From contig NZ_JACGWS010000005.1 in assembly GCF_014397005.1 (NCBI RefSeq), forward strand, positions 1-64,000: a DNA stretch of 64,000 nucleotides, written 5' to 3'. The first letter of the stretch is position 1, and the number at the start of each line of letters is the position of its first letter. Position numbers and translations under genes: made by a program. This document shows positions 409 to 26,724 of this stretch, in pieces. The notes beneath the pieces were generated by a model. That model ran no database searches and was not told the origin of the DNA. It was given only the letters and a program-made list of their open reading frames with translations. The stretch is from Kordia aestuariivivens. GTDB lineage: Bacteria > Bacteroidota > Bacteroidia > Flavobacteriales > Flavobacteriaceae.

Positions 409-2901
409 ATGAAAAAATTAGTATTATTATTTATTATCAATTGCTGCTTCCAAATGAGTGCTTCGGCTCAATGTGGTCAAACAGGAATAGATTCTGGAGT
501 TTGTTACACAAACAATGGTTTACATGCTATTGCGGTTAATATAGGTTCAGACAGTCCTACTGATCTAATTACTGTCAATTTTACAGCAGGCTCCATAGAG
601 CCTATTTTTGATTTCATCGTTGTCTATTCTGGTCCTCTTGGAAGTGGTACTGGAGGAACTGAGATTTACAATGCATCACAAGATTCAGGTAGCTTTGCAG
701 GATTAAGTTTTACAGCAACTGCACCAGGTGAATACTTAAGTATTTATGTGAACGCAGATGGTTCTATAAATTGTGCGGACTCGGGAGGTATAAGTGCAGT
801 ATATAATACATCTTGTTTCGCTCAATGTAACCAAACAGGAGTAGACTCGGGGGTTTGTTATAATAGTACTGATGGTTTACAGGCTATTGTAGTTAATTTG
901 GGCACAGGCAATCCTACTGATGTAATCACGGTCGATTTTACAGCAGGATCCATAGAGGCTTGTTGTGATGAAATCGTGGTCTATTCTGGTCCTCTTGGAA
1001 GTGGTACTGGAGGAACTGAGATTTACAATGCATCACAAGGTTCAGGTAGCTTTGCAGGATTAAGTTTTACAGCTGCTGCACCAGGTGAATATTTGAGTAT
1101 TTATGTGAACGCAAATGGTTCTATTGATTGTAGTTCCAGTGGAAATATAAGTCCTGTATATAATACATCTTGTTCAGTTCAATGTAACCAAACAGGAATA
1201 GACTCGGGAGTTTGTTATAATAGTACTGATGGTATGCAAGCTATTGTAGTTAATATAGGTGCTGACAATCCTACTGATGTAATCACGGTCGATTTTACAG
1301 CAGGATCCATAGAGGCTTGTTGTGATGAAATCGTGGTCTATTCTGGTATTTTTGGAAGTGGCACTGCGGGAACTGAGATTTACAATGCATCACAAAGTTC
1401 AGGTAGCTTTGCTGGATTAAGTTTCACATCAGCACTAGGTGAATATTTGAGTATTTATGTGAACGCTGATAGTTCTGCAGATTGTACTACCGAAGGAAAT
1501 ATAAGCCCTGTATATAATATATCTTGTATAACTCCATCAATTGGATGTGGTCTAACAGGAGTAGACTCTGGAGTTTGTTATAATAGTACTGATGGTATGC
1601 AAGCTATTGTAGTTAATGTAGGCACAGGCAGTCTTTTTGATCTAATCACGGTCGATTTTACAGCAGGCTCCATAGCGCCTGATTTTGATGAAATTGTTGT
1701 CTATTCTGGTGCTTTGGGAAGTGGTACTGGAGGAACAGAGATTTACAATGCAACACAAGCTTCCTCCGGTACCTTTGCGGGATTAAGTTTTACAGCAGCT
1801 GCGCCCGATGAATATTTAAGTATTTATGTGAACGCAAATGGTTCTGGAGATTGTTCGACCCGAGGAAATATAAGCCCTGTATATAATACATCTTGTATAA
1901 CTCTACCAATAGGATGTAATCAAACAGGAGCAGATTCGGGAGTTTGTTACAATAGTACTGATGGTTTACAAGCTATTGCAGTTAATATAGGTACAGGCAA
2001 TCCTTTCGATCTAATCACGGTCGATTTTACAGCAGGATCCATAACGCCTTATTATGATGAAATCGTTGTCTATTCTGGTACTTTTGGAAGTGGCACTGCG
2101 GGAACTGAAATTTACAATGCAATACATACTTCTAGTACCTTTGCAGGATTAAGTTTCACAGCTGCAGCGCCAGGTGAATATTTGAGTATTTATGTGAACG
2201 CAAATGGTATTATTGATTGTACGACCGAAGGAAGTGTTAGTCCAGTATTTAATACATCTTGCACAACTATACCCGTAATTGAATGTAGTCAAACAGGAAT
2301 AGACTCGGGAGTTTGTTACACTAACAATGGTTTACAAGCTATTGCAGTTATAGGCACAGGCAATCCTTTCGATCTAATCACTGTCGATTTTATAGCTGGC
2401 TCCATAGAACCTATTTTTGATTTCATCGTTGTCTATTCTGGTCCTCTTGGAAGTGGTACTGGAGGAACTGAGATTTACAATGCATCACAAATTTCTGGGA
2501 CCTTTGCAGGATTAAGTTTCACAGCAGCTGCGTCTGGTGAATATTTGAGTATTTATGTGAACGCAAATGGTTTTGCTGATTGTAGTTCCAGTGGAAATAT
2601 AAGTCCTGTATATAATACATCTTGCCCAACTTTGGGTATTGATGCTGTTCGTTTTGATACTTCAAGTTTGACGATATATCCTAACCCAACATCAAATTTT
2701 GTGACACTAAAGAATCCAGAAAATATAAAATTAAAAAACATAAGCATACACGATTTAACTGGTCGCTTGATTAAAACATTAGACACAACGAATGTTACTA
2801 ATAATGTACAGATAGACTTGTCAGACTTATCGAGTAATATTTATTTTTTATCTGCTGAAACAGAGAAAAGCAAAACAACTTTTAAAGTGATTAAAGAGTA
2901 A
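409..2901 (+). CDS. Secreted six-repeat CUB-like protein with T9SS sorting domain
   Basis: An 830-residue protein with a clear signal peptide (about residues 1-20, ending SASA-Q). Six tandem domains of about 120 residues start near residues 22, 140, 259, 380, 503 and 626. Each opens with C-x-TG-x-DSGVCY and contains DEIVVYSG or DFIVVYSG, GTEIYNA, FAGLSFT and EYLSIYVNA, a beta-rich pattern that resembles CUB domains. From about residue 745 there is a T9SS type A sorting domain (TIYPNP, ISIHDLTGRLI, IYFLSA). It should be exported by the Sec system, then moved across the outer membrane by T9SS and anchored or released. Repeats are nearly identical at DNA level, implying recent duplication. Ligand unknown; adhesion or matrix binding is a guess. 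Confidence 0.85.
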   Translation: MKKLVLLFIINCCFQMSASAQCGQTGIDSGVCYTNNGLHAIAVNIGSDSPTDLITVNFTAGSIEPIFDFIVVYSGPLGSGTGGTEIYNASQDSGSFAGLSFTATAPGEYLSIYVNADGSINCADSGGISAVYNTSCFAQCNQTGVDSGVCYNSTDGLQAIVVNLGTGNPTDVITVDFTAGSIEACCDEIVVYSGPLGSGTGGTEIYNASQGSGSFAGLSFTAAAPGEYLSIYVNANGSIDCSSSGNISPVYNTSCSVQCNQTGIDSGVCYNSTDGMQAIVVNIGADNPTDVITVDFTAGSIEACCDEIVVYSGIFGSGTAGTEIYNASQSSGSFAGLSFTSALGEYLSIYVNADSSADCTTEGNISPVYNISCITPSIGCGLTGVDSGVCYNSTDGMQAIVVNVGTGSLFDLITVDFTAGSIAPDFDEIVVYSGALGSGTGGTEIYNATQASSGTFAGLSFTAAAPDEYLSIYVNANGSGDCSTRGNISPVYNTSCITLPIGCNQTGADSGVCYNSTDGLQAIAVNIGTGNPFDLITVDFTAGSITPYYDEIVVYSGTFGSGTAGTEIYNAIHTSSTFAGLSFTAAAPGEYLSIYVNANGIIDCTTEGSVSPVFNTSCTTIPVIECSQTGIDSGVCYTNNGLQAIAVIGTGNPFDLITVDFIAGSIEPIFDFIVVYSGPLGSGTGGTEIYNASQISGTFAGLSFTAAASGEYLSIYVNANGFADCSSSGNISPVYNTSCPTLGIDAVRFDTSSLTIYPNPTSNFVTLKNPENIKLKNISIHDLTGRLIKTLDTTNVTNNVQIDLSDLSSNIYFLSAETEKSKTTFKVIKE

Positions 2902-2930
2902 ATCTAATAACAGAAGTGTTTTTTTGTTGA

Positions 2931-3025
2931 TGTCGCTTCGCTTTTGGGTTGCTTTGCTTTTGGATCGCTTCGCTTTTGGATCGCTTAGTTGTTGGGTCGC
3001 TTCGCTTTTGGGTCGCTTCGCTGTA
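2931..3025. repeat. Degenerate 16-bp repeat array (6 units)
   Basis: Six 16-bp units related to the array at the left edge, with variants such as GGGTTGCTTTGCTTTT and GGATCGCTTCGCTTTT. They begin about 30 bases after the stop codon of the repeat protein. Older and more diverged than the left array. Confidence 0.9.
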
Positions 3026-3099
3026 TATTCTTATGATCCGTCATCACGAACGCTAGTGAAGTAATCTGTTTGTAGTGTAACACGATTGACGGGTTGCTT
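3010..3099. repeat. 90-bp direct repeat, copy B
   Basis: Second copy of the 90-bp element, in the same orientation as copy A and differing at three positions. Together they bracket the CUB-like gene, so homologous recombination between them could remove or duplicate that gene. Confidence 0.9.
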
Positions 3100-3139
3100 C
3101 TTTTCAATCAAATTGGAAGTTGAAAAATATTGAATTCAG

Positions 3140-3193
3140 ATCAAAAAGTCTAACCTTCTAATGATCTAAATATGTCTAAAAAGCAACGCTTAC
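3140..3193. repeat. TCTAA-rich direct repeat, copy A
   Basis: A stretch with TCTAA recurring every 8 to 13 bases (GTCTAACCTTCTAATGATCT and on to AAGCAACGCTTA). It matches a copy about 420 bases to the right and overlaps the stop codon of the small membrane protein between them. Confidence 0.8.
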
Positions 3194-3483
3194 ACGTTTT
3201 TTTCTTGTTTCCCGTAAAATTGAATGACTAACTTTCCAAAAACAAAATAGAGTACAAGCACCGTAATTCCTCCAACCAAATATCCGTTTTCTAATAATCC
3301 TTCATATCCATAAGTATAGCAGTATAGTATAATGCATAGGACAAACTGAAGAACTGCATACATGATATTTCCTTTTGGACTATAGCCAAACATTCCAAGA
3401 AAGTGCGTTTTGGTCAATCCAAAAATTAGATGTGGCATTGCATTGGCTAGTAATGCACCAATAATAAAGTCTATGAGATTCAT
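3190..3483 (-). CDS. Small membrane protein, function unknown
   Basis: A 97-residue hydrophobic protein with three likely membrane helices (about residues 4-25, 40-58 and 67-88), with short charged ends (terminus KQEKNV). I do not recognise the family. It is a lone gene between two TCTAA-rich direct repeats. The ATG start gives a normal inner-membrane protein. It could be a conserved integral membrane protein or a transporter-like fragment; nothing in its neighbours points to a role. Confidence 0.6.
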   Translation of the reverse strand: MNLIDFIIGALLANAMPHLIFGLTKTHFLGMFGYSPKGNIMYAVLQFVLCIILYCYTYGYEGLLENGYLVGGITVLVLYFVFGKLVIQFYGKQEKNV

Positions 3484-3560
3484 TTTTTAATATTTTTCTT
3501 TGCGGATGTCGTTAAAACTAGATTAATCTCAACTCATATCAAAGTCAGGCTGAAGTTTTA

Positions 3561-3623
3561 AATCAAAAAAGTCTAACAATCTAAGCTTCTAATGATCTAA
3601 ATATATCTAAAAAACAACGCTTA
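3561..3623. repeat. TCTAA-rich direct repeat, copy B
   Basis: Second copy of the TCTAA-phased element, same orientation as copy A, with one extra TCTAA unit. It lies upstream of the small membrane protein gene, so the two copies flank that gene. Confidence 0.8.
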
Positions 3624-3751
3624 TGAACTATTTACGACGCTTATACATTTGTGCTAGGATTTTTCGTGGATTTTTTAGAGTTTCATGCTGTAAAACGGAG
3701 TTGTGACTCGCTTTCGTTTACTGATGGAAGCTCGTAACATCGCTACAAATA

Positions 3752-4043
3752 TGATGTATCAGTTGTTGGAAAACTGTCGTATGGTTGTAAATAGGTTTCA
3801 ATAGTTGTTAGAAACTAGATACATTGCTGTAAATACGTTGCAACAGTTGTTGGAATCTAGATGTATTACTGTAAACACATTTCAACACTTGTTGGAGGTT
3901 ACTTGTATTGGTTTAATAAGGTTCAACAGTTGTTGGAAACTATTAGCATTGCTGAAAACACGTTTTAACACTTGTTGGAAGTCACTAATATTAGTTTAGC
4001 ATGTTTCAACAGTTGATGGAAGCAATTTACATTGATGTAAATT
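3752..4043. repeat. 42-bp degenerate minisatellite (about 7 units)
   Basis: About seven units of 41-42 bases. Each carries a conserved block like GTTTCAACAGTTGTTGGAAAC followed by a looser half ending in TGTAAATAC. Unit starts near 3752, 3795, 3837, 3879, 3921, 3962 and 4003. Divergence between units is high, so the array is old. The rest of the gap between the neighbouring genes (3624-3751, 4044-4129) shows nothing else. A short open frame across it is only a by-product of the 42-base (14-codon) period. Confidence 0.85.
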
Positions 4044-4129
4044 CAATCCAACAATAGTTTTCTTTAAAATAATTGAATAAAATTACCTGAAAAGGTAAAA
4101 AGATTGTGAAATCTTCAAAAACGAGTATA

Positions 4130-4831
4130 ATGAATAAACCCAGATTAGGAAACTATCGAAACAGTGAGTTCCTTCAATATCTGAAAGATGTGTTGGAATT
4201 GGTAAATCAGTATGATGTGCAACTGTTAGGAGTAACCGAACAGCGTAATGCATTGGCAACAAGTACAGCAGCATTGGATGCTGTGTTTCAACACGATCAA
4301 AGCAATAAAGTTACCCAAGTATTACTCGATTTGGATACGAAACGCGGCAGTATGTACAGCGGAATTAAAAGTATTTTGGAAGGAAATACACATCATTTTG
4401 ACCTTGTAAAGCAAGAAGCTGCAAAACGTTTGTTGTTCAACTTTACTAGTTATGGTAAAAATGTGACACGCATGAATTACCAGGCAGAAACAGCGACCAT
4501 AGATAGCATGCTTGCCGATTGGAATACTGATCCTACGATGCAGGAAGCCGTTGTACTGTTACAACTTTCGGAATGGGTTGTAGAATTGCAGCGGATCAAT
4601 ACGTTGTTTAACGAACGTTATTTAGCCAGCATATCGGAAACGGCTGCCAATCCAAGAATAAGCTTTTCCACGCTGCGCAATGATGGTATTGTAGCGTATC
4701 GTGCCTTGGTAGCACGTATAAAAGCTTTTATGACCTTGGAAGCGAATGAAGCATACACACAAGTTTATTCCGAAATTTATGAATTGGCAAGGCAGTATAA
4801 TCAGGTAGTGAAGTTTAGACAAACTAAGTAG
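4130..4831 (+). CDS. DUF6261-like protein
   Basis: A 233-residue soluble, mainly helical protein from the ATG start; a GTG eight codons upstream is possible. The opening (PRLGNYRNSEFLQYLKDVLELV) and the long helices resemble the Bacteroidota family DUF6261, whose function is unknown. No signal peptide or membrane segment. It stands alone after the 42-bp minisatellite. Family assignment is from memory of the pattern. Confidence 0.55.
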   Translation: MNKPRLGNYRNSEFLQYLKDVLELVNQYDVQLLGVTEQRNALATSTAALDAVFQHDQSNKVTQVLLDLDTKRGSMYSGIKSILEGNTHHFDLVKQEAAKRLLFNFTSYGKNVTRMNYQAETATIDSMLADWNTDPTMQEAVVLLQLSEWVVELQRINTLFNERYLASISETAANPRISFSTLRNDGIVAYRALVARIKAFMTLEANEAYTQVYSEIYELARQYNQVVKFRQTK

Positions 4832-5040
4832 TCTGAGGCACTTAAAGACTAATTGGATTGCTTTTTAGTAGGTTCGTAATTTAATGATATGACAAAAACA
4901 TAAAATTTTTATAGACATTTACTTCATCTAATCAAGTGTATACATATTCAATTGATAAATACCGTTTATCGACTCATTATATTTTTAGGTTGTATTCTTA
5001 ACAATCTTTGTTTTCAATTAAAATTATAAATCATATAATT

Positions 5041-7680
5041 ATGGAAACAAAAAAAAAGTTACTTGCTTTTTTAAAGCAAGACCCACAACTAAAGTTTAAG
5101 TACAATGAGCAACAACAAACGGTACAATACCTAAATGGAAAACTCGCTACTTTGTCGAAAGATTCGAAAAGTTGGGAAAAGGAATTATGGGAATTTGCAA
5201 ACAAGCATGCTGATTTGTTTGGGAAGATTGACCCAGAATCGACCAAGCTAATTAATGAAGCAAAAGATACGGAAAAAGGAACAACATTTACGTATCAACA
5301 ATACCATGAAGGTATTAAAATTGAAGGAGCTGTCGTTCAATTCAATGTAAATAAAAAAGGGAAGTTAAAAAGAGTGAAAAACTTATTACAATCAAAAATT
5401 CCCATTTCTGCAAAGCCTAAACTAAAGGCCGATGTGGCTTTTAAAAACATTAAAAAAGTAATTCATAATACGGAAGGTACTTATGATAAGCCAGCGTTAT
5501 TGTTTCATATCGATAAAGAACAGACATTGCGCTTAAGTTATTTATTCACCTTAAAAAGAGAACGCAATTGCTCAGAAAAAGAATATCCTATGTTGGCAGA
5601 ACATCATGGAGGTTCACATATATGGAAAGTATATGTAGATGCACATACAGGAGCGATTATCAATTATTACGATAATATGCAAACAATTTCTACTGTAGGA
5701 AATGGTACAGGCGTATATTCTGGTACGAATACTGTTAATGCTTGGGACGACGGAACTACTTTCTCGCTAAGAGACACCACACGAACTGGTGGCTTAGGTC
5801 CAGTAATTAATACCAATGACGGATCTACTATTTCTGTGGATGCTGATAATAATTGGAATAATAATACGACAACGCCAAGAGGCGCTAATCAAGGAGCAGA
5901 AGTAGATTCTCATATCTATACTTCGGATGTGATTGATTATTTTAATACAGTACACGCTAGAAACAGTATTGATGGTTTGGGTGGAAATGTATTATCCGTA
6001 GCACATTTCGGCACTAACACCGATAATGCCTATTGGAACGGAACTCAAATGCTAATTGGTGACGGATCAGGAGCTGCTCCAGGATTTGATTATTTATGTA
6101 CTGATGATGTAATTGCACACGAATTTGTACACGGAGTAACACAATATACGTGTGGACTTATCTATCAAAATGAATCGGGAGCGTTAAATGAAGCTTTTTC
6201 CGATATTTTCGCTGCCTTTATTACTAATAATTGGCTTATAGGTGAATCGTGCTGGCTAAAAACGACTGCTCCTGCATTGCGAAATATGATTGAGCCTACT
6301 AATGGAGGACTTTGGAATGTTGCTGATCCTATTAATAGCGTTATTAACGGACACCAACCTTCTCATTATTCGCAACGTTATATTGGATCTGCTGATAATG
6401 GTGGCGTGCATATTAATAGTGGTATTATTAATCACTTATTCTATCTATTAACGATAGGAGGAACACATACTATTAGTGGTATTACTGTAAATGCAATTGG
6501 TCAAAATATTGCCGAAACATTATTGTATAGATGCATGACTGTTAATTTAGTAGGACAGCCAAATGCTACTTTCTTAGATTTTAGAGCTGCCATGTTAGAT
6601 GCTTGTCTTGATTTATTCCCTACTGATTTGAATGTGTTAACACAGGTGAAAAACGGATTTAACGCTGTGGGTATTGGTCCTGATTTATATGTTAGAGACA
6701 ATATTTCTGATACAGGCGTAGAACCTTATCCAGGAGGAGCTCTTTGGAACAGTCCAGATATTATAAATCGTCAAAATATTGTTAGCAATCCAGCAGGTAC
6801 TTTAGGTAATATGAGCAATGCTAATTTATCGCAAAATATTGAAAGAGGGCAAGATAATTTTGTGTACATACGATTACAAAACCGAGGAGCTGCAAGTGGT
6901 GATGTAACTATCAATGTATTCTTGTCGCCAGCTACGACCTTTGGCTCTCCCGCTTTATGGATTCCTGTGGGATCTGATGTGCAGTTGGGAATTGCTCCAG
7001 GAACGAGTAGAGTATCGAATACGATTGTTTTTCCAGCTGCCATGATTCCGGCAACAGGACACTATTGTATGATTGCTGTAATAAGTGATGCTTTAGATCC
7101 TGCGCCAGATCATACATTAATATCCAATTTATCAGAATATCTCAATTATGTTAGAAATACAAATAATATAGCGTACAAAAATATGAATGTGGTCGATGTG
7201 CTTCCTAATCTTGTAGGTAATGTGTCTGTACTTATTGAAAGGTTTCAAAGTTCAAAAGATATTTATGACATTGAATTGGATTTGGAAAATTTCATACCCG
7301 GAGCGAAACTCGATTTAAAAGCAAATAGAAAGGCATTTAAATACGCCAATTTTAAAGGATTAAAGCTTGACCGCAGATTAAAAAGAAAATCTGTTCTAAA
7401 AGTGCTTGACGTTGGTGAACTTAAGGAGAACTTAATTTTTAATACGATGACTCCAGCAACCATACAAACTGCAGGTATTGCTGGCGACTTTGTAAAAAAA
7501 GAAGTGCATGCAATAAAAAATATTAAGTTAGTGAGAGATGCAGCTTTAAAATTATCGTATAAGTTGCCATCAAAAGAAGTACTAGACAAACTACCTAAAA
7601 AAGAGTATTCATTAGTAGTGAAACAATTATGGGAAGGAGAAGTTCTTGGAGCCTTTACGGTAGTATTTAGGCATAAATAG
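5041..7680 (+). CDS. Thermolysin-like M4 metallopeptidase with extra C-terminal region
   Basis: An 879-residue protein from the ATG (a start 11 codons upstream only adds a weak extension). The N-terminal part (about residues 35-215) resembles the FTP/PepSY propeptide of M4 peptidases. The catalytic domain has HEFVH at residues 360-364, the third zinc ligand in NEAFSD (E384, 20 residues after H364 as in thermolysin), and GGVHINSGI carrying the second catalytic histidine. Residues about 545-700 look like a CARDB/Ig-type beta domain (NFVYIRLQNRGAASGDVTI). The last 180 residues are lysine-rich and unrecognised. The N-terminus METKKKLLAFLKQD lacks a usual signal peptide, odd for this secreted family. 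No T9SS domain is seen. Confidence 0.88.
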   Translation: METKKKLLAFLKQDPQLKFKYNEQQQTVQYLNGKLATLSKDSKSWEKELWEFANKHADLFGKIDPESTKLINEAKDTEKGTTFTYQQYHEGIKIEGAVVQFNVNKKGKLKRVKNLLQSKIPISAKPKLKADVAFKNIKKVIHNTEGTYDKPALLFHIDKEQTLRLSYLFTLKRERNCSEKEYPMLAEHHGGSHIWKVYVDAHTGAIINYYDNMQTISTVGNGTGVYSGTNTVNAWDDGTTFSLRDTTRTGGLGPVINTNDGSTISVDADNNWNNNTTTPRGANQGAEVDSHIYTSDVIDYFNTVHARNSIDGLGGNVLSVAHFGTNTDNAYWNGTQMLIGDGSGAAPGFDYLCTDDVIAHEFVHGVTQYTCGLIYQNESGALNEAFSDIFAAFITNNWLIGESCWLKTTAPALRNMIEPTNGGLWNVADPINSVINGHQPSHYSQRYIGSADNGGVHINSGIINHLFYLLTIGGTHTISGITVNAIGQNIAETLLYRCMTVNLVGQPNATFLDFRAAMLDACLDLFPTDLNVLTQVKNGFNAVGIGPDLYVRDNISDTGVEPYPGGALWNSPDIINRQNIVSNPAGTLGNMSNANLSQNIERGQDNFVYIRLQNRGAASGDVTINVFLSPATTFGSPALWIPVGSDVQLGIAPGTSRVSNTIVFPAAMIPATGHYCMIAVISDALDPAPDHTLISNLSEYLNYVRNTNNIAYKNMNVVDVLPNLVGNVSVLIERFQSSKDIYDIELDLENFIPGAKLDLKANRKAFKYANFKGLKLDRRLKRKSVLKVLDVGELKENLIFNTMTPATIQTAGIAGDFVKKEVHAIKNIKLVRDAALKLSYKLPSKEVLDKLPKKEYSLVVKQLWEGEVLGAFTVVFRHK

Positions 7681-7693
7681 TAAGTATACATAC

Positions 7694-7739
7694 CGACTCT
7701 GCTCAAACTACTTCAATTGTAGCATATTGAGCAGAGTCG
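7694..7739. repeat. 13-bp perfect inverted repeat
   Basis: CGACTCTGCTCAA and its exact complement TTGAGCAGAGTCG are separated by 20 bases, just after the M4 protease stop codon. There is no T-tract, so it is not a standard terminator. It looks like one of the dispersed palindromic intergenic elements of Flavobacteriia; it might still protect the 3' end of the mRNA. Confidence 0.75.
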
Positions 7740-7930
7740 AAATGTTGGACTTGTTCCCGCGGAGGTGGAAATCTAGACTTTGAAACAAGAGTAGCGCAAA
7801 ACAGCAGAAATATATACATAAGTTGCAGGGAAGAATTTTAAGTTCATCGAAAATCCATTAGATTTGTAGCGAAACATACATTAACTATAAAGGAAATAGA
7901 TCCTTTATTCTATTGTTAGCAAGAATTAAA

Positions 7931-8494
7931 ATGATGCATCCTCTGAGACAACATATTGAAGAAATAATCAGCCTTACTGATGAAGAGTTTGATTTTGTTT
8001 TGAGTCATTTTGAGCAAATCAAAAAACGGAAGCATCAATATATAGTGCAAGAAGGAGAAATTGTCAATAAAGAATATTGGATCATAAAAGGGTGTCTAAA
8101 AAGTTATTTTATTGACGATACAGGAAAAGAACATATTCTTCAATTTGGAATGGAAAATTGGTGGATTACAGATTATGAATCTTTTGTAAAACAAACCAAG
8201 TCTAAAACCGCTATTGATTGTATTGAAGATAGTGAGTTACTATATATTTCTTTTGAAAATAGAGATAAACTGACTGCTCAAATGCACAAAATGGAACGCT
8301 TTTGGGCTAAAAAAAGTAAAATTGGTCGTATTGCACTTCAAAATAGAATTCTATCCTTATTGAAAAACTCTTCGAAAGAACGGTACAACTTACTTTTAGA
8401 ACAATATCCAAAACTTTCCCAACGTGTTCCTAAAAAAATGATTGCTGCCTATTTAGGTGTTTCTAGAGAAACACTTAGCCGATTAAACTCATAA
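7931..8494 (+). CDS. Crp/Fnr-family transcriptional regulator
   Basis: A 187-residue protein from an ATG-ATG pair; an upstream TTG would add six residues. Residues about 20-120 form a cyclic-nucleotide-binding-like beta barrel (YIVQEGEIVNKEYWIIKGCLKSYFIDDTGKE), and the C-terminus carries a winged helix-turn-helix with the signature MIAAYLGVSRETLSRL. This is the usual Bacteroidota single-protein Crp/Fnr type. The effector cannot be told; no Fnr-type cysteine cluster is seen. It lies just upstream of, and in line with, a tautomerase-DoxX pair, which it probably controls. Confidence 0.9.
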   Translation: MMHPLRQHIEEIISLTDEEFDFVLSHFEQIKKRKHQYIVQEGEIVNKEYWIIKGCLKSYFIDDTGKEHILQFGMENWWITDYESFVKQTKSKTAIDCIEDSELLYISFENRDKLTAQMHKMERFWAKKSKIGRIALQNRILSLLKNSSKERYNLLLEQYPKLSQRVPKKMIAAYLGVSRETLSRLNS

Positions 8495-18562: not shown

Positions 18563-20341
18563 ATGAAAATTATACAAAACCTTTTAGCAGTAAGCATTCT
18601 ATTTGCGATGCTGACATTTACTTCTTGCAGAACAGAAGAAGTTGAAATTATTGAAGCGCCTCAAGAAGAGGTACTCGTAGCAAATTCACCAGCCGCTATA
18701 CTTATGAAGAACATCGCCACCAATGATGGTTCAGCGGATAATATTATAGACAACTCAAACTGCTTTAATATTCTATTGCCAGTTACGGTGTTTGTAAACG
18801 GATTGGAAATTATTGTAGATTCTGAAGACGATTTTAATACGATAGAAGCTATTTTTGATGAATTTGAAGACGATAACGATGATTTGCAAATCCAATTCCC
18901 AATTGTGATTGTTGCTGCAGATTATACACAAATCACCATTAATAATTTAGCAGAATTTACAGCCTTATCAGCCAATTGTAATGGCCCGAATGTGAGTGAT
19001 GATGATATTGAGTGTTTGGACTTTCAATATCCGATTATAGCATCTATCTTCAATGCAAACAATGAATTGTTAGACACCATTACGATTCAAACGGATGAGC
19101 AGATGTATAATTTTATAGACACTATAAATGTCAATGATATTATTAATATTCAGTTTCCGATTACGGTGACAACTTTTGATGGCTTGACAATTACCGTAAA
19201 TGATTTTAACGAACTAGTATCGACCATTAATGATTATGCAGATGCTTGTGATGAAGATGATGATAATGATTATAATGATGATGATTGTAATGATTGTACA
19301 GACAATCAACTCACAAATATCCTTACGCAATGTACTGACTGGACTGTTGATAAACTAGAGAGAAACGACATTGATTTAGAAGATAATTTCACAGGCTATA
19401 CCTTTAATTTTACGGCAAATGGAACAATCAATATTACTTCGGTAGGCGGAAATTACACCGGAACTTGGGCAGCTTCAGGCTCAGGAAATAATATCTCGGT
19501 AACCGTTACCGTTCCTGACTTCACAGACTTAAATAATACTTGGATTTTACACGAAATAGAGCAGGACGGCGAAACAAAAGTTGATTTGAGACTTGGCGAT
19601 GATCGTTTGCGTTTTGAAAGTGATTGTACAGGTACTGGCGGCGGAAATGTTGATGATACAGCCTTAACGAATGCACTTACCATGGGCGATTGGTACATTA
19701 CGTATTACTTTGATGATGCAGATGAGACTGCAAATTATAACGGCTATGTTTTCAATTTTGCATCAGATGGAAATGCTACAACAACTATTTCTGGAACAGC
19801 AACTCCTGGATTTTGGACAACTTCTGCGGGTGATCAAACTGCATTGGAATTGAATTTGAATTTTGGTACTTCGGTTCCTTTAGATGAATTAGCGGAAGAT
19901 TGGGACGTATTGGAAGTTACAAATGATATCATACGCTTGAAAGATATTAGTGGCGGCAATGGTTCTAATGATTATTTAACCTTTGAACGCAATCCTTCTG
20001 GAGGTGGTCCAAATAACCTGTCTATCGTATTAGGTAGTGGCAATTGGGTTGTAAGTTCATATACAGATGATGGAGTCGATGAAACTGCTGATTACAACGG
20101 ATATCAATTAAATTTTGATAGCAATGGAACTGTTATCGCTGACAACGGAACACCTATAAACGGTACATGGACAACGCAAAGTTCAGGAAGCGTATTGATA
20201 TTAGATTTTGGAACGTCAATGCCTTTTGATGAGTTGAATGATGATTGGGATGTGGTTTCTATTACTTCCACACAAGTCAAAGTACAAGATGTAAGCGGCG
20301 GAAACGGCGGAACAGACATCTTAATATTAGATAAACTATAA
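18563..20341 (+). CDS. Acidic repeat lipoprotein
   Basis: A 592-residue protein with lipobox TSCR at about residue 22. The mature part is very rich in Asp, Asn and Glu (runs such as DEDDDNDYNDDD near 230). Two related N-terminal domains contain LPVTVFVNGLEI/IQFPITVTTFDG motifs. They are followed by three copies of a lipocalin-like module of about 115 residues (WTVDKLERNDIDLEDNFTGY; WYITYYFDDADETANYNGY; WVVSSYTDDGVDETADYNGY) that end in a GGNG motif. Probably surface exposed; the acidic loops could bind calcium. Transcribed away from the FecI-type sigma gene. Function unknown. Confidence 0.72.
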   Translation: MKIIQNLLAVSILFAMLTFTSCRTEEVEIIEAPQEEVLVANSPAAILMKNIATNDGSADNIIDNSNCFNILLPVTVFVNGLEIIVDSEDDFNTIEAIFDEFEDDNDDLQIQFPIVIVAADYTQITINNLAEFTALSANCNGPNVSDDDIECLDFQYPIIASIFNANNELLDTITIQTDEQMYNFIDTINVNDIINIQFPITVTTFDGLTITVNDFNELVSTINDYADACDEDDDNDYNDDDCNDCTDNQLTNILTQCTDWTVDKLERNDIDLEDNFTGYTFNFTANGTINITSVGGNYTGTWAASGSGNNISVTVTVPDFTDLNNTWILHEIEQDGETKVDLRLGDDRLRFESDCTGTGGGNVDDTALTNALTMGDWYITYYFDDADETANYNGYVFNFASDGNATTTISGTATPGFWTTSAGDQTALELNLNFGTSVPLDELAEDWDVLEVTNDIIRLKDISGGNGSNDYLTFERNPSGGGPNNLSIVLGSGNWVVSSYTDDGVDETADYNGYQLNFDSNGTVIADNGTPINGTWTTQSSGSVLILDFGTSMPFDELNDDWDVVSITSTQVKVQDVSGGNGGTDILILDKL

Positions 20342-20353
20342 AAACTTTATATC

Positions 20354-20830
20354 ATGAAAACAACAATTTATTATGTCTTTTTAGTAATGATTAGCTTTTC
20401 ATTAATGTCTACTACGTGTGATACTGATGATATGATAATAACTGATAACTCCATGATTATTAATGAAGTCATCAACATTGCCGAAACGGACTCGTGGAGA
20501 ATTACAAGCTATATTGATTCTGGACAAGATGAAACCACCGATTTTACCAACTATGACTTTACGTTTCAGTCAGATGGAACACTCATTGCTACAAATAGCA
20601 CAGATCAAGTTGCAGGTATATGGTCGGTAACGGATAGTAACAGTAATGACGATAGCTCAAGTGACGATGATATTGATTTTAATATAAATTTCAATGTAGC
20701 CACGACAAGCGTATTCTTTGATTTGAATGACGATTGGGATATTGTAAGTTATACGTCCACGACCATTAGTTTACAAGATGTCAGTGGTGGAAATGGCGGA
20801 ACAGATACCTTGGTTTTTCAGAAAAATTAA
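20354..20830 (+). CDS. Single-module acidic lipoprotein
   Basis: A 158-residue protein with a signal sequence and a Cys at MSTTCDTDD that fits a lipobox loosely. It is one copy of the C-terminal module of the preceding gene (WRITSYIDSGQDETTDFTNY ... LNDDWDIVSYTSTTISLQD, VSGGNGGTDTLVFQ). It lies 12 bases downstream of that gene and before a strong terminator, so both share a transcript. It probably arose by duplication of one module. Confidence 0.72.
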   Translation: MKTTIYYVFLVMISFSLMSTTCDTDDMIITDNSMIINEVINIAETDSWRITSYIDSGQDETTDFTNYDFTFQSDGTLIATNSTDQVAGIWSVTDSNSNDDSSSDDDIDFNINFNVATTSVFFDLNDDWDIVSYTSTTISLQDVSGGNGGTDTLVFQKN

Positions 20831-23437: not shown

Positions 23438-23745
23438 TTACTGCTATCTTTTATGATTCCAAAACTACTAAACTTTTTCAGTTTTTACGGACGTATATCG
23501 ACTCATGATACGATTTGAGACCTTCTTTGGTAGAATTTGAACGTTGAGGTGGAGATATTTGTTGAATTGCGTCTAAGTAAAGTATATAAATATAGAATCT
23601 TACACTTGGGCTCCACAAGTCCCTTAAGATATTGATAGATGTACTCTCCTGTAAAAGAAATCTATTACATCTTATTTAAAATTCAAGAAACCCTTTCAAA
23701 ATACGTACATCTCAAAATAGTTTTTTTTAAATATAAAAAAGGAAA
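23438..23745. other. Intergenic region upstream of the AraC regulator gene
   Basis: About 300 AT-rich bases between the regulator start and the last terminator of the RiPP array. It must hold the regulator promoter. I see no further gene; an open frame on the plus strand across this part and the first precursor is antisense and without family features. Confidence 0.5.
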
Positions 23746-23763
23746 AGCGAACCGAAGTTCGCT
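23746..23763 (-). terminator. RiPP array terminator 1 (UUCG hairpin)
   Basis: On the minus strand AGCGAAC-TTCG-GTTCGCT: a 7-bp stem closed by a C(UUCG)G tetraloop, followed by TTTTCC and TTTTTT. It ends the precursor gene that stops seven bases upstream. Confidence 0.9.
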
Positions 23764-23769
23764 TACATC

Positions 23770-23982
23770 TTACCAGCCAATGGTACATAATAGTGACCAA
23801 GTGCAACTATCATCGCCTATTGTGTCCACACAATCTCCTTTAGTAAAATTTATAATTGATGTGGCAGGAGTTATTGAAGTTCCACAGCCAGTTGAACCAG
23901 CACCTCCATTAATTGACTTGTTGTCAAATCGAACAATAGAGGACTTGTTAAGTTTTAACGATTTAATGTCCTTTTTTTTCAT
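23770..23982 (-). CDS. Class I lanthipeptide-type precursor, array member 1
   Basis: A 70-residue peptide. The leader MKKKDIKSLKLNKSSIVRF matches the Bacteroidota class I lanthipeptide leader (K-rich, LKLNK-x2-I). GG at residues 26-27 (SINGG) is a likely cleavage point. The core is rich in Ser, Thr and Cys (4 Cys) and ends FTKGDCVDTIGDDSCTWSLL...GW. Known family chemistry: Ser/Thr dehydration by LanB, then thioether rings by LanC. No such enzyme is in the window. The core end is shared with array member 6. Confidence 0.8.
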   Translation of the reverse strand: MKKKDIKSLKLNKSSIVRFDNKSINGGAGSTGCGTSITPATSIINFTKGDCVDTIGDDSCTWSLLCTIGW

Positions 23983-24041
23983 AATGTGAAGTTTTAAAAT
24001 TAATAGTGATTCAATTTAAGAAAATAATTATAAATCAATAA

Positions 24042-24054
24042 AACAGTAGTTATG
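24042..24054 (-). promoter_or_regulatory. Shared promoter-proximal block of the RiPP array
   Basis: Minus-strand CATAACTACTGTT lies upstream of member 1, just after the terminator of the next upstream unit. Exact copies are at 24449-24461 and 25367-25379; weaker copies are near 24773-24785 and 25037-25050. A second shared block, TTATTAATTTTAAA, lies 5-15 bases before most start codons. Role (UP element, activator site or duplication relic) is unknown. Confidence 0.55.
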
Positions 24055-24077
24055 GAAATAAAGAGCAAAAAAAAAAA

Positions 24078-24091
24078 CGAACCGAAGTTCG
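24078..24091 (-). terminator. RiPP array terminator 2 (UUCG hairpin)
   Basis: Minus-strand CGAAC-TTCG-GTTCG followed by ten T. The outer two pairs of the 7-bp stem seen in the other copies are partly lost. It terminates the frameshifted member 2. Confidence 0.88.
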
Positions 24092-24110
24092 CTTAATCTA
24101 CTATATAAAT

Positions 24111-24337
24111 TTAAACATCTGAAGGACATATATGGTCACAAATTGCAGCACTTGTAGGACAACCAAAACTCCCAGTAGGAGGGCAATTATCTGAAGCTCC
24201 GCAGCCTAACCATTTAGTCATTATAGTAGTAGTGTTATCAGTACATGCTAGGCTAACTCCTCCTTTAATATATGAAGGATGTAGTTTAGAATAGACTGCT
24301 TATTGAGTTTAAGAGATTTAAGATTTCTTTTTTTCAT
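24111..24337 (-). pseudogene. Frameshifted lanthipeptide precursor, array member 2
   Basis: Starts MKKRNLKSLKLNKQSILN, the same leader as members 1, 5 and 6, but the frame closes at codon 30. In a frame offset by one base deletion near 24284-24287 the sequence continues as LHPSYIKGGVSLACTDNTTT and on to a Cys-rich core with CGASDNC, CPTSAAICDHIC and a stop. The total of 227 bases is one short of 76 codons. The repaired product would have a KGG cleavage site and 6 Cys in the core. Either a real single-base deletion or a sequencing/assembly error. Confidence 0.8.
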
Positions 24338-24481
24338 GATTAAATGATTTTAAAATTAATAAAGAACTAAGGTATCAAATGAAGAATGCATTAAAAAAGG
24401 GTAGTAGCTTAAATCATGCAATTTAAGCGAGTAAAATTACTTTAAACTAACAGTAGTTATGAAAACGATGAACAAAAGAAA

Positions 24482-24499
24482 AGCGAACCGAAGTTCGCT
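24482..24499 (-). terminator. RiPP array terminator 3 (UUCG hairpin)
   Basis: Exact copy of the 18-nt hairpin AGCGAACTTCGGTTCGCT on the minus strand, followed by TTTTCTTTTG. It lies 10 bases after the stop of member 3. Confidence 0.92.
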
Positions 24500-24509
24500 T
24501 TACAAAACC

Positions 24510-24689
24510 TTAAGAAGTAGGGTTTGAGTTACATATTTGGACAAGTTTACAAAGTACTGTATCCACATAACATACACATCCAGGTGGGCACCATAAATAA
24601 TTTAAAGTACAACTAGCTTTTCCTCCATTAATAGATTTTTGCTCAGATTTATTCAAGACAGAACCCAATTTTGAAATGTTTTTTAACAT
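24510..24689 (-). CDS. Double-glycine-leader Cys-rich peptide, array member 3
   Basis: A 59-residue peptide too short for routine calling. The leader MLKNISKLGSVLNKSEQKSINGG is of a different type from members 1, 2, 5 and 6. It is the bacteriocin-like double-glycine leader common in Flavobacteriia, normally cut by C39-peptidase ABC exporters. The core has 7 Cys (SC, WC, PPGCVCY, LC, IC). It uses the same terminator and 5' block as its neighbours. Modification unknown; disulfides or thioethers are both possible. Confidence 0.75.
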   Translation of the reverse strand: MLKNISKLGSVLNKSEQKSINGGKASCTLNYLWCPPGCVCYVDTVLCKLVQICNSNPTS

Positions 24690-24806
24690 GATATAGAATT
24701 TAAAATTAATAAAGAATAAACTTACGTAACTAAATTATTTATCATTTACGGTAAGACCTTAATTAACATTTAATACTGTAGGTATGAAATAATGTAACAA
24801 AAGAAA

Positions 24807-24824
24807 AGCGAACCGAAGTTCGCT
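24807..24824 (-). terminator. RiPP array terminator 4 (UUCG hairpin)
   Basis: Exact copy of the array hairpin on the minus strand, followed by TTTTCTTTTG, eight bases after the stop codon of the small member 4. Confidence 0.92.
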
Positions 24825-24831
24825 TTAAGAT

Positions 24832-24927
24832 TTAATCTTCACTTAAAGGTAAACCTGTTCCACCTTGCCCACCACCAAGAATTAGTTGAAGATTTTCGGT
24901 CTTGTACTGTTCAAATTTTTCTAACAT
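24832..24927 (-). CDS. Short double-glycine peptide, array member 4
   Basis: A 31-residue peptide. MLEKFEQYKTENLQLILGG is a third leader type, like the Bacteroidota GG-leader precursor family (TIGR04149-like). The predicted core is only GQGGTGLPLSED, with no Cys and one Thr and one Ser, so lanthionine formation is not possible. It may be a signal peptide, a truncated precursor or a peptide matured in another way. It is flanked by the standard array terminator and upstream spacer, which argues that it is a real unit. Confidence 0.65.
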   Translation of the reverse strand: MLEKFEQYKTENLQLILGGGQGGTGLPLSED

Positions 24928-25061
24928 AACGTATTGTTTTAAAGATTAATAATACTCTAATCTAGAAAATAAAGGAGAGATTAAAAAAAGGTAAAAGCCT
25001 AAATCATCTAATTTATGTCAGCGGATTTGATCAATAAACTTGTAGTTGTAAAGCATAAAAA

Positions 25062-25079
25062 AGCGAACCGAAGTTCGCT
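25062..25079 (-). terminator. RiPP array terminator 5 (UUCG hairpin)
   Basis: Exact hairpin copy on the minus strand, followed by a T6 run; it ends member 5, whose stop codon is 28 bases upstream. Confidence 0.92.
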
Positions 25080-25107
25080 CATAAATTTGTGTTATGTATG
25101 TTTTAGC

Positions 25108-25287
25108 TTATTCCCAACAAAGAAGCGTCCAAGTAATGACAATAGGACCACGATCATCACTTGATGGATTAGGACATGTTTGGCATATTGAAGGACTATC
25201 CGAAGCGCCGCCTTTTAGACTGTTACCAGAGAGACTTGAAATTGACTTTTTGTTAAGCTTTAATGATTTTAAGTTTCTTTTCTTCAT
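25108..25287 (-). CDS. Class I lanthipeptide-type precursor, array member 5
   Basis: A 59-residue peptide with the leader MKKRNLKSLKLNKKSISSLS and the cleavage-like motif SLKGG at residues 23-27. The core (SDSPSICQTCPNPSSDDRGP then IVITWTLLCWE) has three Cys and six Ser/Thr before or between them, which suits thioether rings. The leader is nearly identical to that of member 2. An overlapping plus-strand open frame is antisense. Confidence 0.78.
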   Translation of the reverse strand: MKKRNLKSLKLNKKSISSLSGNSLKGGASDSPSICQTCPNPSSDDRGPIVITWTLLCWE

Positions 25288-25399
25288 GATTTAAAATTTT
25301 ATGATTTATATCCTAGAGTTCAGAAAATGAAAAAATGTTACCTGAAAAATGAAAAATACTTTTTAAAACAGTAGTTATGAAAGCAAGAAGCAAAAAAAT

Positions 25400-25417
25400 A
25401 GCGACCCGAAGATCGCT
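25400..25417 (-). terminator. RiPP array terminator 6 (variant UUCG hairpin)
   Basis: Minus-strand AGCGATC-TTCG-GGTCGCT followed by a T-rich tract. It differs from the other copies at two stem positions but stays paired through a U-G wobble that exists only in the minus-strand RNA. It ends member 6. Confidence 0.88.
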
Positions 25418-25438
25418 AGTATTGTAAAGGTTTATTTT

Positions 25439-25651
25439 CTACCAACCAGTACCAGGAGTTGGTGTCCAACAATGATCATCACCAAGTGTATCGACGCAAT
25501 CACCTTCAGTAAAATGTTTAATAATACAGCACCAAGATGAGGATAAAGACCAATCTGAGATTGCAGCAGCCTGCCCTTTAATACTCATCATTTCAAAATT
25601 TGAAATGGTCTTTTTGTTAAGTTTTAAAGTTTTTAGATCTTTTTTTTTCAT
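25439..25651 (-). CDS. Class I lanthipeptide-type precursor, array member 6
   Basis: A 70-residue peptide with leader MKKKDLKTLKLNKKTISNFE and a MSIKGQAAA junction in place of a GG. The core has SLSSSWCC and FTEGDCVDTLGDDHCWTPTP ending GTGW. It shares its length, leader and the FT-x-GDCVDT-x-GDD-x-C-x-W region with member 1 at the other end of the array, but the part between is different. First gene of the array in transcription order; its upstream region lacks the spacer block of the others. Confidence 0.8.
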   Translation of the reverse strand: MKKKDLKTLKLNKKTISNFEMMSIKGQAAAISDWSLSSSWCCIIKHFTEGDCVDTLGDDHCWTPTPGTGW

Positions 25652-25764: not shown

Positions 25765-26724
25765 TTAATTTTTTATACTTCCAGAAGAAAAAGTGGTGTT
25801 GCCGTCTTTGTTTGAGATTTCAAAGTATCCTGCGGTTGGTGCTTTTTTAGTTCCCGTTTTTATGATTCCGCGCATATCAACTTGCAAGTTGTAGATTCGG
25901 ATGTTATTATCTTCTTTTTCAACGGTATAGAATCCTTTGGCAAACCAACGCATTTTTTTAGCGACGTTTTTATCAATTAAATCTAAGTATTCTTCATGAA
26001 TCGGAAAGGCTTCAATGGAATCTTCCATATCAGACAAAATTGAATATTTCAGCATATAAATACTATCGCGTCCTTTTGCCACCCCATACCAATTGATATT
26101 TGCAATTCCTACGGGCATGGTTAGTAAGGAATTGTATTCAATATTTTCCTGAGCCATTCGTGTCGAAATTTCAGCTTTTACAAATTCTTTATGTATAAGT
26201 GTAAAGATCAAATACAGTGAACTTATGAGCAATCCATAATTATTGAATGTTGCTCTTTTTAGTTTCGATTTGTAGCTCCATAAACTCAAGATTAAACCAA
26301 TAATTAGCGGAACTGTATACAATGGATCAATTACATTAACACTATCAAAACCAACTCTTTGATCGCTAAATGGTAAAAATAGTTGTGTTCCATACGCCGT
26401 AAAGGTATCTAACAGTACATGCGTAAAAAGACAGAGCCACGTAAATAATAATAGTCTGTTGAATTTGATATTTTGAAGCCATTTTATTTTGCTTAGCGCG
26501 AAAGCAATTAAGAGTGCTCCCAAAATACTGAATAGGATAGAATGACTAAAACCTCTGTGAATGCTAAGCATTTCTAGCTTATCATAGAACAAATAGAAAA
26601 TCACATCAAGGTCAGGAATTGTCGCGATAATTGCGCCTACGACAGCGCCTTTATTCCCGATTTTTTTACCAAGAACGGCTTCTCCAATCGCAGCACCTAA
26701 AACGGCTTGGCTAATACTATCCAT
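25765..26724 (-). CDS. YdjM/DUF457-type membrane-bound metal-dependent hydrolase
   Basis: A 319-residue protein. The first half matches the YdjM family (MDSISQAVLGAAIGEAVLG; PDLDVIF; SIHRGFSHSILFS; HVLLDTFTAYGTQ), with four to five membrane helices and His/Asp motifs for metal. In E. coli YdjM is LexA-regulated; the reaction is unproven. The second half is a longer periplasmic or cytoplasmic domain than usual. Its ATG directly abuts the stop codon of the serine hydrolase gene, so the two are an operon. Confidence 0.85.
   Translation of the reverse strand: MDSISQAVLGAAIGEAVLGKKIGNKGAVVGAIIATIPDLDVIFYLFYDKLEMLSIHRGFSHSILFSILGALLIAFALSKIKWLQNIKFNRLLLFTWLCLFTHVLLDTFTAYGTQLFLPFSDQRVGFDSVNVIDPLYTVPLIIGLILSLWSYKSKLKRATFNNYGLLISSLYLIFTLIHKEFVKAEISTRMAQENIEYNSLLTMPVGIANINWYGVAKGRDSIYMLKYSILSDMEDSIEAFPIHEEYLDLIDKNVAKKMRWFAKGFYTVEKEDNNIRIYNLQVDMRGIIKTGTKKAPTAGYFEISNKDGNTTFSSGSIKN

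Follow-up and report, generated by a model that had tools for sequence, protein, structure and literature searches.

More than 200 small peptide genes in short arrays of Kordia aestuariivivens, apparently mostly served by one lanthipeptide enzyme set elsewhere in the genome

The prochlorosins and synechococsins of marine picocyanobacteria are made by one synthetase acting on precursors that are scattered singly or in tandem, and that share a conserved double-glycine (GG) leader followed by a less conserved core. ProcM has 29 substrates and SyncM has 79 putative precursors (PMC10783134). In Bacteroidetes, the motif LxLxKx5L, often with GG, marks the leaders of class I precursors, and a C39 protease is often encoded in the cluster (PMC7268733). 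Up to 176 predicted precursors of ribosomally synthesized and post-translationally modified peptides (RiPPs) occur in one Bacteroidota genome, and the genus Kordia is rich in lanthipeptides and in radical S-adenosylmethionine (rSAM) peptides (PMC11118758), as well as in biosynthetic clusters (PMC10734526, PMC9248904). Here we describe an array of six small minus-strand genes at positions 23770–25651 of a 64,000-nucleotide stretch of Kordia aestuariivivens (contig NZ_JACGWS010000005.1, positions 1 to 64,000; hereafter the window), together with related genes throughout the genome.

The array probably belongs to a much larger, genome-wide set of cassettes for exported peptides, a library with three types of leader. 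Type A peptides (LKLNK-type leader) would be modified in trans by a single LanB/LanC pair, type B peptides (SEQK..INGG-type leader) would contain disulfides, and type C peptides would be short products of a short GG leader. The likeness to the prochlorosins lies in the working principle. The prochlorosins and synechococsins depend on a LanM-type enzyme of class II and on leaders of the Nif11 family, whereas the Kordia set combines an LxLxK leader with LanC and a split LanB of class I. It also comprises at least 207 type A genes, and two further leader types share its arrays and terminators. We considered membership in the prochlorosin family and rejected it: the enzyme that probably acts on them is a LanB of class I, the leaders fit an LxLxK profile, and none of the six window genes has a Pfam match to Nif11. 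Because both enzyme class and leader differ, the resemblance is one of principle only.

Compared with the class I precursors of Bacteroidota, the Kordia type A genes have the same LxLxKx5L motif and the same GG end. However, the published survey covers precursors within seven genes of a LanC (PMC7268733), whereas 202 of the 207 type A genes in Kordia lie on contigs other than C16, which carries LanB. The open-access literature that we searched gave no account of one LanB serving scattered cassettes, of mixed-leader arrays, of shared terminators or of cassette-sized movement. Pinensins and the lanthipeptides of Pedobacter lusitanus, which are also class I and from Bacteroidota, differ in having clustered precursors.

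The extent of the library was assessed first with NF038153, a lanthipeptide leader model. It has at least 147 matches in the genome at E ≤ 10 (150 of 235 candidates scored); 5 of 14 control genomes had matches at this threshold, none of them above the curated cut-off. The type A catalogue uses a profile made from 173 seeds and applied to the stretches around NF038153 matches and terminators (532 kb, later 572 kb). At least 207 genes score 12 bits or more, and the best reversed decoy reaches 9.7; such decoys are the sole control for this profile, which was trained on the same genome. As the stretches cover about a tenth of the genome, this count is a lower bound. For type B, a genome-wide scan with 15 leaders as queries gave 40 matches at E ≤ 1, of which 37 had E-values under 1e-4; 36 genes were accepted as small genes within the read DNA. 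Type C was sought in the read DNA only, where seven genes were found.

In total, at least 250 genes of the three types occupy at least 133 places on 24 contigs, comprising 73 single genes and 60 arrays of two to six. Neighboring genes usually share a strand (110 of 117 pairs). Fifteen arrays mix classes, and three of them, including the one in the window, contain all three. In the genome-wide scan, type B genes occur within 1 kb of a type A gene in 16 of 36 cases, versus 1.9 expected (p = 8e-12). The motif L.L.[KR]x5[LIFM] is present in 170 of 207 type A genes, 0 of 36 type B genes, 0 of 7 type C genes and 11 of 729 other small open reading frames (ORFs). With a strict final L, it is found in 125 of the 207, versus 4 of the 729. 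GG occurs in 194 type A leaders and in most type B genes, and G followed by G, A, Q or K occurs in 203 type A leaders. The genome has more than 200 small peptide genes in short arrays, apparently mostly served by one lanthipeptide enzyme set elsewhere, and the collection resembles a natural peptide library of very large size. To our knowledge, such a set would be the largest for a single enzyme. As a separate observation, four closely alike type B genes form a tandem array at C3:20733-22228.

We searched the whole genome (5.46 Mb, 46 contigs) with Pfam models for LanB, LanC and C39. The LanB N-terminal domain has one match, at C16:8242-10203. The locus around it encodes LanC (C16:6867-8102), LanB (C16:8113-10368), a separate LanB C-terminal partner (C16:10361-11269) and a region of regulators and precursors (C16:11358-16717) with five type A genes at 11.4–16.7 kb. 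Beyond the precursors, on the other strand, are HlyD-like and ATP-binding cassette (ABC) exporter genes with a C39 match at 20013–20375. This is the best-scoring of three C39 matches in the genome, one of which is partial. The LanC of this locus has WCYGD and VCHG, which is the Cys and Cys-His pattern expected for the zinc site (PMC10352776), and its LanB is 87–91% identical to the LanBs of eight Kordia records, which assigns the window to this genus. LanB, LanC and an exporter are thus present in the same genome as the type A genes. The first-pass annotation had called the array an orphan and had set a genome-wide search for this machinery as a test. Its description fits the window, where the searches for LanB, LanC and C39 domains gave no match (radical SAM genes, which it also reported absent, were outside these searches), but not the genome.

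Four LanC-type proteins are encoded in total, on C16, C44, C34 and C17. The one on C44 belongs to a group of genes (C44:56000-68000, at 1446–8350 of this piece) that also encodes a subtilase-type protease, a 137-aa protein, a 414-aa repeat protein, an APH-type kinase and a HopA1-domain protein. The 414-aa protein has many xPTGTQGC-like repeats and no Pfam match, and it could be a giant precursor. The group looks like a second lanthipeptide-like locus, and its combination of kinase, HopA1 and LanC is reminiscent of class V lanthipeptides. Elsewhere on C44, a type B gene (C44:9244-9405) is followed by the terminator known from the array, and the next gene encodes a product of about 500 aa that includes a partial C39-like domain. 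The remainder of this protein looks membrane-bound, with a thioredoxin-like end, as judged by eye from the fold, and it is perhaps an oxidative folding partner of type B peptides.

The type A leader is linked to LanB by gene neighborhood and by co-occurrence. Each of the eight Kordia LanB loci taken from named genomes (L185-L191, L200) has a type A gene of type MKKQKLGLNKLSLTKSRIAELN, about 3–6 kb after LanB. Among the 20 LanB loci that were fetched, 19 have a type A gene within 10 kb, and the sole exception, with none, is an 8-kb Aminicenantes contig (L203). Type A genes also follow LanB in Lacinutrix and Leptobacterium loci and precede it in Psychroserpens and Aquimarina loci and in one further from Flavobacteriaceae. 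Type B genes stand among the type A genes at three Aquimarina loci. Another 11 loci, from a family search (L094-L104), have no type A gene within their flanks of just 1.5 kb. Each of the 11 genomes searched in the genus has one LanB, with 45–98 leader matches per genome at E ≤ 0.1 (lower bounds in 10 of the 11). Across 149 genomes of the family, the leader was found in 9 (E ≤ 0.02), LanB in 15 and both in 7 (p = 7e-7; p = 6e-6 when the genome studied here is left out). An orphan type A gene at C4:131350-131598 has a leader almost the same as that of the LanB-side genes, and its core falls into the same similarity group as theirs.

In the window, ORFs and a hairpin scan confirm six small genes on one strand, each with its own terminator, as had been proposed. 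Gene 1 (23770–23982) encodes a type A precursor of 70 aa with the leader MKKKDIKSLKLNKSSIVRFDNKSINGG and a core with four Cys that is similar to the core of gene 6 and to one at C12:242445. Gene 5 (25108–25287; 59 aa) is also type A, with the motif LKLNKKSISSL, a GG site and three Cys in the core. The third type A precursor, gene 6 (25439–25651; 70 aa), has the motif LKLNKKTISNF and four core Cys, and has GQ instead of GG where cleavage is expected. Thus, the LxLxKx5L motif, with L, I, F or M in its last position, is present in genes 1 and 6 (ending in F) and in gene 5 (ending in L), and in all three a GG-type site is followed by a core containing both Cys and Ser/Thr. Gene 2 (24111–24337) is a broken type A gene whose remnant does not have the motif. 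Its 29-aa leader ORF (24248–24337) stops without a GG site, and a Cys-rich ORF (24111–24221) lies in a different frame. The frameshift may be an assembly error. The three leader types of the first-pass annotation therefore stand, but of its four LKLNK genes only genes 1, 5 and 6 are intact.

Gene 3 (24510–24689) encodes a type B precursor of 59 aa with the leader MLKNISKLGSVLNKSEQKSINGG, which includes SEQKSINGG, and a core with six Cys. Double-glycine bacteriocins resemble type B in their GG leader and Cys-rich core. Gene 3 has such a leader, in a genome with a C39 exporter, although its match to the bacteriocin-like protein model NF047798 is weak (11.7 bits, cut-off 23.5). Gene 4 (24832–24927) encodes a type C peptide of 31 aa with the leader MLEKFEQYKTENLQLILGG (containing LQLILGG) and no Cys. 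Its scores are below the curated cut-offs of the models for ComC-type signal peptides (PF03047, 14.5 of 20.4 bits; NF033214, 10.7 of 50 bits), and we assign type C to no known family.

Several observations weigh against a single LanB serving the type A genes. Genes 1, 5 and 6 score 9.4, 11.6 and 12.7 bits with NF038153, versus a curated cut-off of 22, which 33 of the 147 matches listed in the genome pass. Some cassettes are decaying, as seen in the broken gene 2 and in other suggested remnants. In the family sample, 8 of the 15 LanB genomes have no leader match (E ≤ 0.02), and 2 of the 9 leader genomes have no LanB match; the latter are G088, whose match lies within a frame of 500 aa, and G140, with a 13-residue match, both of which were kept in the count. 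Another ABC exporter with a C39 domain is encoded, together with an HlyD-like partner, at C1:570266-573749 (C39 at C1:570281) and could serve type B or C peptides; no type A or B gene was found in the 5 kb read near it. Because there are three LanC-type proteins besides that on C16, and radical SAM and YcaO proteins were outside the searches, another enzyme could act on some type A peptides. An improbable, stronger form of this idea is that type A peptides are precursors of a different maturation system (radical SAM/SPASM, LanM-like or class V-like), with LanB serving the adjoining genes only. The four LanC-type proteins and the low leader scores would fit it, as would a weak match of gene 5 to the rSAM-RiPP model TIGR04149 (8.7 of 25 bits) and the ambiguity of rSAM versus lanthipeptide calls in such precursors (PMC11118758). 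However, the co-occurrence of leader and LanB speaks against it, as does the identical leader motif on LanB-side and orphan genes. Moreover, no gene of any of the three types is present around the other LanC genes, in 12 kb at C44, 12 kb at C34 and 10 kb at C17.

The cores are consistent with modification of type A peptides by LanB and LanC. Of the 207 type A genes, 204 cores were parsed and three were dropped for lack of a parsable site. All but one of the 204 contain both Cys and Ser/Thr. Cys makes up 11.6% of type A core residues, versus 2.1% in other small ORFs, and Ser/Thr makes up 19.7%, versus 12.9% in type B cores (14 measured) and 13.7% in other small ORFs. Pairs of type A genes taken at random have a mean identity of 43% in the leader and 16% in the core, versus 15% for shuffled cores, so the cores are barely more similar than chance. 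In total, 246 parsable cores fall into 184 similarity groups, of which 154 have a single member; 18 of the 30 larger groups are spread over loci.

The number of Cys residues in the whole proteins distinguishes the types further. It is even in 106 of 207 type A proteins, as expected without pairing, and in 30 of 36 type B proteins (p = 3e-4). This difference suggests that type B genes encode disulfide peptides. Judged by sequence, they look like such peptides and not like substrates of a second RiPP enzyme. The same numbers bear on the proposal that type A and type B peptides are all unmodified, disulfide-containing double-glycine bacteriocins exported via C39, in which case the orphan genes would yield no lanthionine. 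The frequent GG in both types and the presence of C39 exporters are compatible with this proposal, but the absence of a preference for even Cys counts in type A and the Ser/Thr-rich type A cores make it very unlikely. In a side observation, the type B peptide encoded at C14:55428-55625 has a core with a CC...GWC pattern that we take to be reminiscent of hevein-like chitin-binding peptides.

The cassettes also share transcription signals. In all six array genes, a hairpin with a UUCG loop (AGCGAAC-UUCG-GUUCGCU or a near variant) and a T-run follow 5–27 nucleotides past the stop codon. By hairpin scan and folding, these terminators lie on the minus strand at 23745–23764 (gene 1), 24075–24094 (gene 2), 24480–24501 (gene 3), 24805–24826 (gene 4), 25061–25080 (gene 5) and 25399–25418 (gene 6, with variant arms and a G-U pair). 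They fold at −8.9 to −11.5 kcal/mol (z of −3.2 to −4.7), and each is beaten by just 0–2 of 200 shuffles. Within 2.6 kb, there are seven terminator-like sites, versus a mean of 0.9 in shuffles, and six of the seven belong to the array genes.

The proposed shared upstream blocks are borne out as well, in that four block families around the gene starts (D2, D3, D6 and D7) are real. D2 is a 69-nucleotide start-side block common to the four LKLNK genes at 65–71% identity, and D7 is a shorter start-side block found with gene 3 and two LKLNK genes. A block after the terminators, CATAACTACTGTT, is largely local to this array. It was rejected as a genome-wide promoter, being present in 6 of 207 type A genes (at most 1 mismatch, 350 bp upstream). 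The AT-rich words of a start-side box, TTATTAATTTTAAA, are modestly enriched, and a scan for sigma-70-type promoters found no excess (12 sites, versus 12.8 in shuffles).

Genome-wide, 70 sites match the hairpin pattern with no more than 2 mismatches, versus 3 sites for the reversed pattern. In the 532-kb sample, which is biased because it was picked around leaders and terminators, a type A, B or C gene lies directly 5′ of the hairpin at 52 of 68 sites (at most 3 mismatches); the check suggested in the first-pass annotation, to look for the same terminator beside other small genes, thus had a positive outcome. It is not a private mark of these genes, since the other 16 sites follow none of those listed. 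Some of the 16 come after type C-like genes or remnants and others after ordinary genes, such as a GTPase-like gene at C42:294017 and a gene for a 189-aa protein at C34:164453.

Homology in relatives supports the idea of exchangeable cassettes. The best DNA match of the array among 60 genomes, its own genome aside, is a single cassette with 85% identity in the relative G004 (C1:233437-233731 of that genome; 295 bp). The corresponding block in the window (24480–24771, minus strand) runs from the terminator through gene 3 into about 80 bp of 5′ DNA. In G004, the cassette sits at a different locus, adjoining a type A gene that has a relative on C23 of the genome studied here (67% in the core). 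A second G004 locus (L208) has an array of types C-A-B-C-B with four such hairpins. The right-hand neighbor of the window array is a hydrolase gene (25765–26724), whose homologues in G006 (66%) and G004 (55%) have no gene of the three types in the 10–11 kb fetched. The best longer hydrolase matches in the other eight relatives are just 34–43%, so the empty-site comparison rests on two genomes.

The frameshift in gene 2, together with remnants before terminators at C4:130146 and C3:176681, suggests turnover of cassettes. These remnants, and the hydrolase homologues without an array alongside, would also be expected if the arrays were mostly silent, decaying debris of gene birth and death, with only the LanB-side genes in use. 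We regard this as highly improbable. Pooled over 30 similar pairs, the ratio of nonsynonymous to synonymous differences (pN/pS) is 0.28 in leaders and 0.24 in cores; selection of the pairs for similar cores lowers these values, which speak for coding function and not for its strength. In the gene 3 pair, synonymous divergence exceeds nonsynonymous divergence in both leader and core. In addition, the 207 leaders still fit a single profile, and nearly all type A cores retain Cys with Ser/Thr.

Under the favored explanation of a library served in trans, each cassette would consist of a short gene, its own 5′ region and a hairpin terminator, and could be copied, moved and read independently. Type A genes would specify precursors of class I lanthipeptides, of the LxLxKx5L/GG kind found in Bacteroidota. 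We infer that their leader is recognized in trans by the single LanB, which would act by glutamylation with a separate elimination partner. Ser and Thr of the core would be dehydrated, LanC would join them to Cys as thioethers, and cleavage after GG and export of the product would fall to the C39 exporter encoded next to LanB. Type B peptides may pass through the same kind of GG-cutting export as disulfide peptides, not as LanB substrates, and type C genes are predicted to encode very short GG-leader peptides. The biological role would most likely be competition or signaling. More broadly, it is possible, if somewhat doubtful, that every Kordia has one conserved class I LanB/LanC/C39 station supplied by self-contained cassettes, between one and two hundred of them or more, that duplicate and jump between loci as transcription units. 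The unit of evolution would then be the cassette, and three chemistries (thioether, disulfide and a short third kind) would share one format and one export route.

If the explanation is true, class I lanthipeptide synthesis would gain a strong natural example of substrate tolerance, with one LanB accepting more than 200 cores that are largely unrelated; comparable libraries are known for class II enzymes. The type A cores would then offer a ready substrate set for asking what LanB needs beyond the leader. Mining based on clusters would overlook most of the precursors, given their distance from the enzyme genes. Finally, the mixed arrays with shared terminators may provide a tractable case of the spread of peptide genes within a genome.

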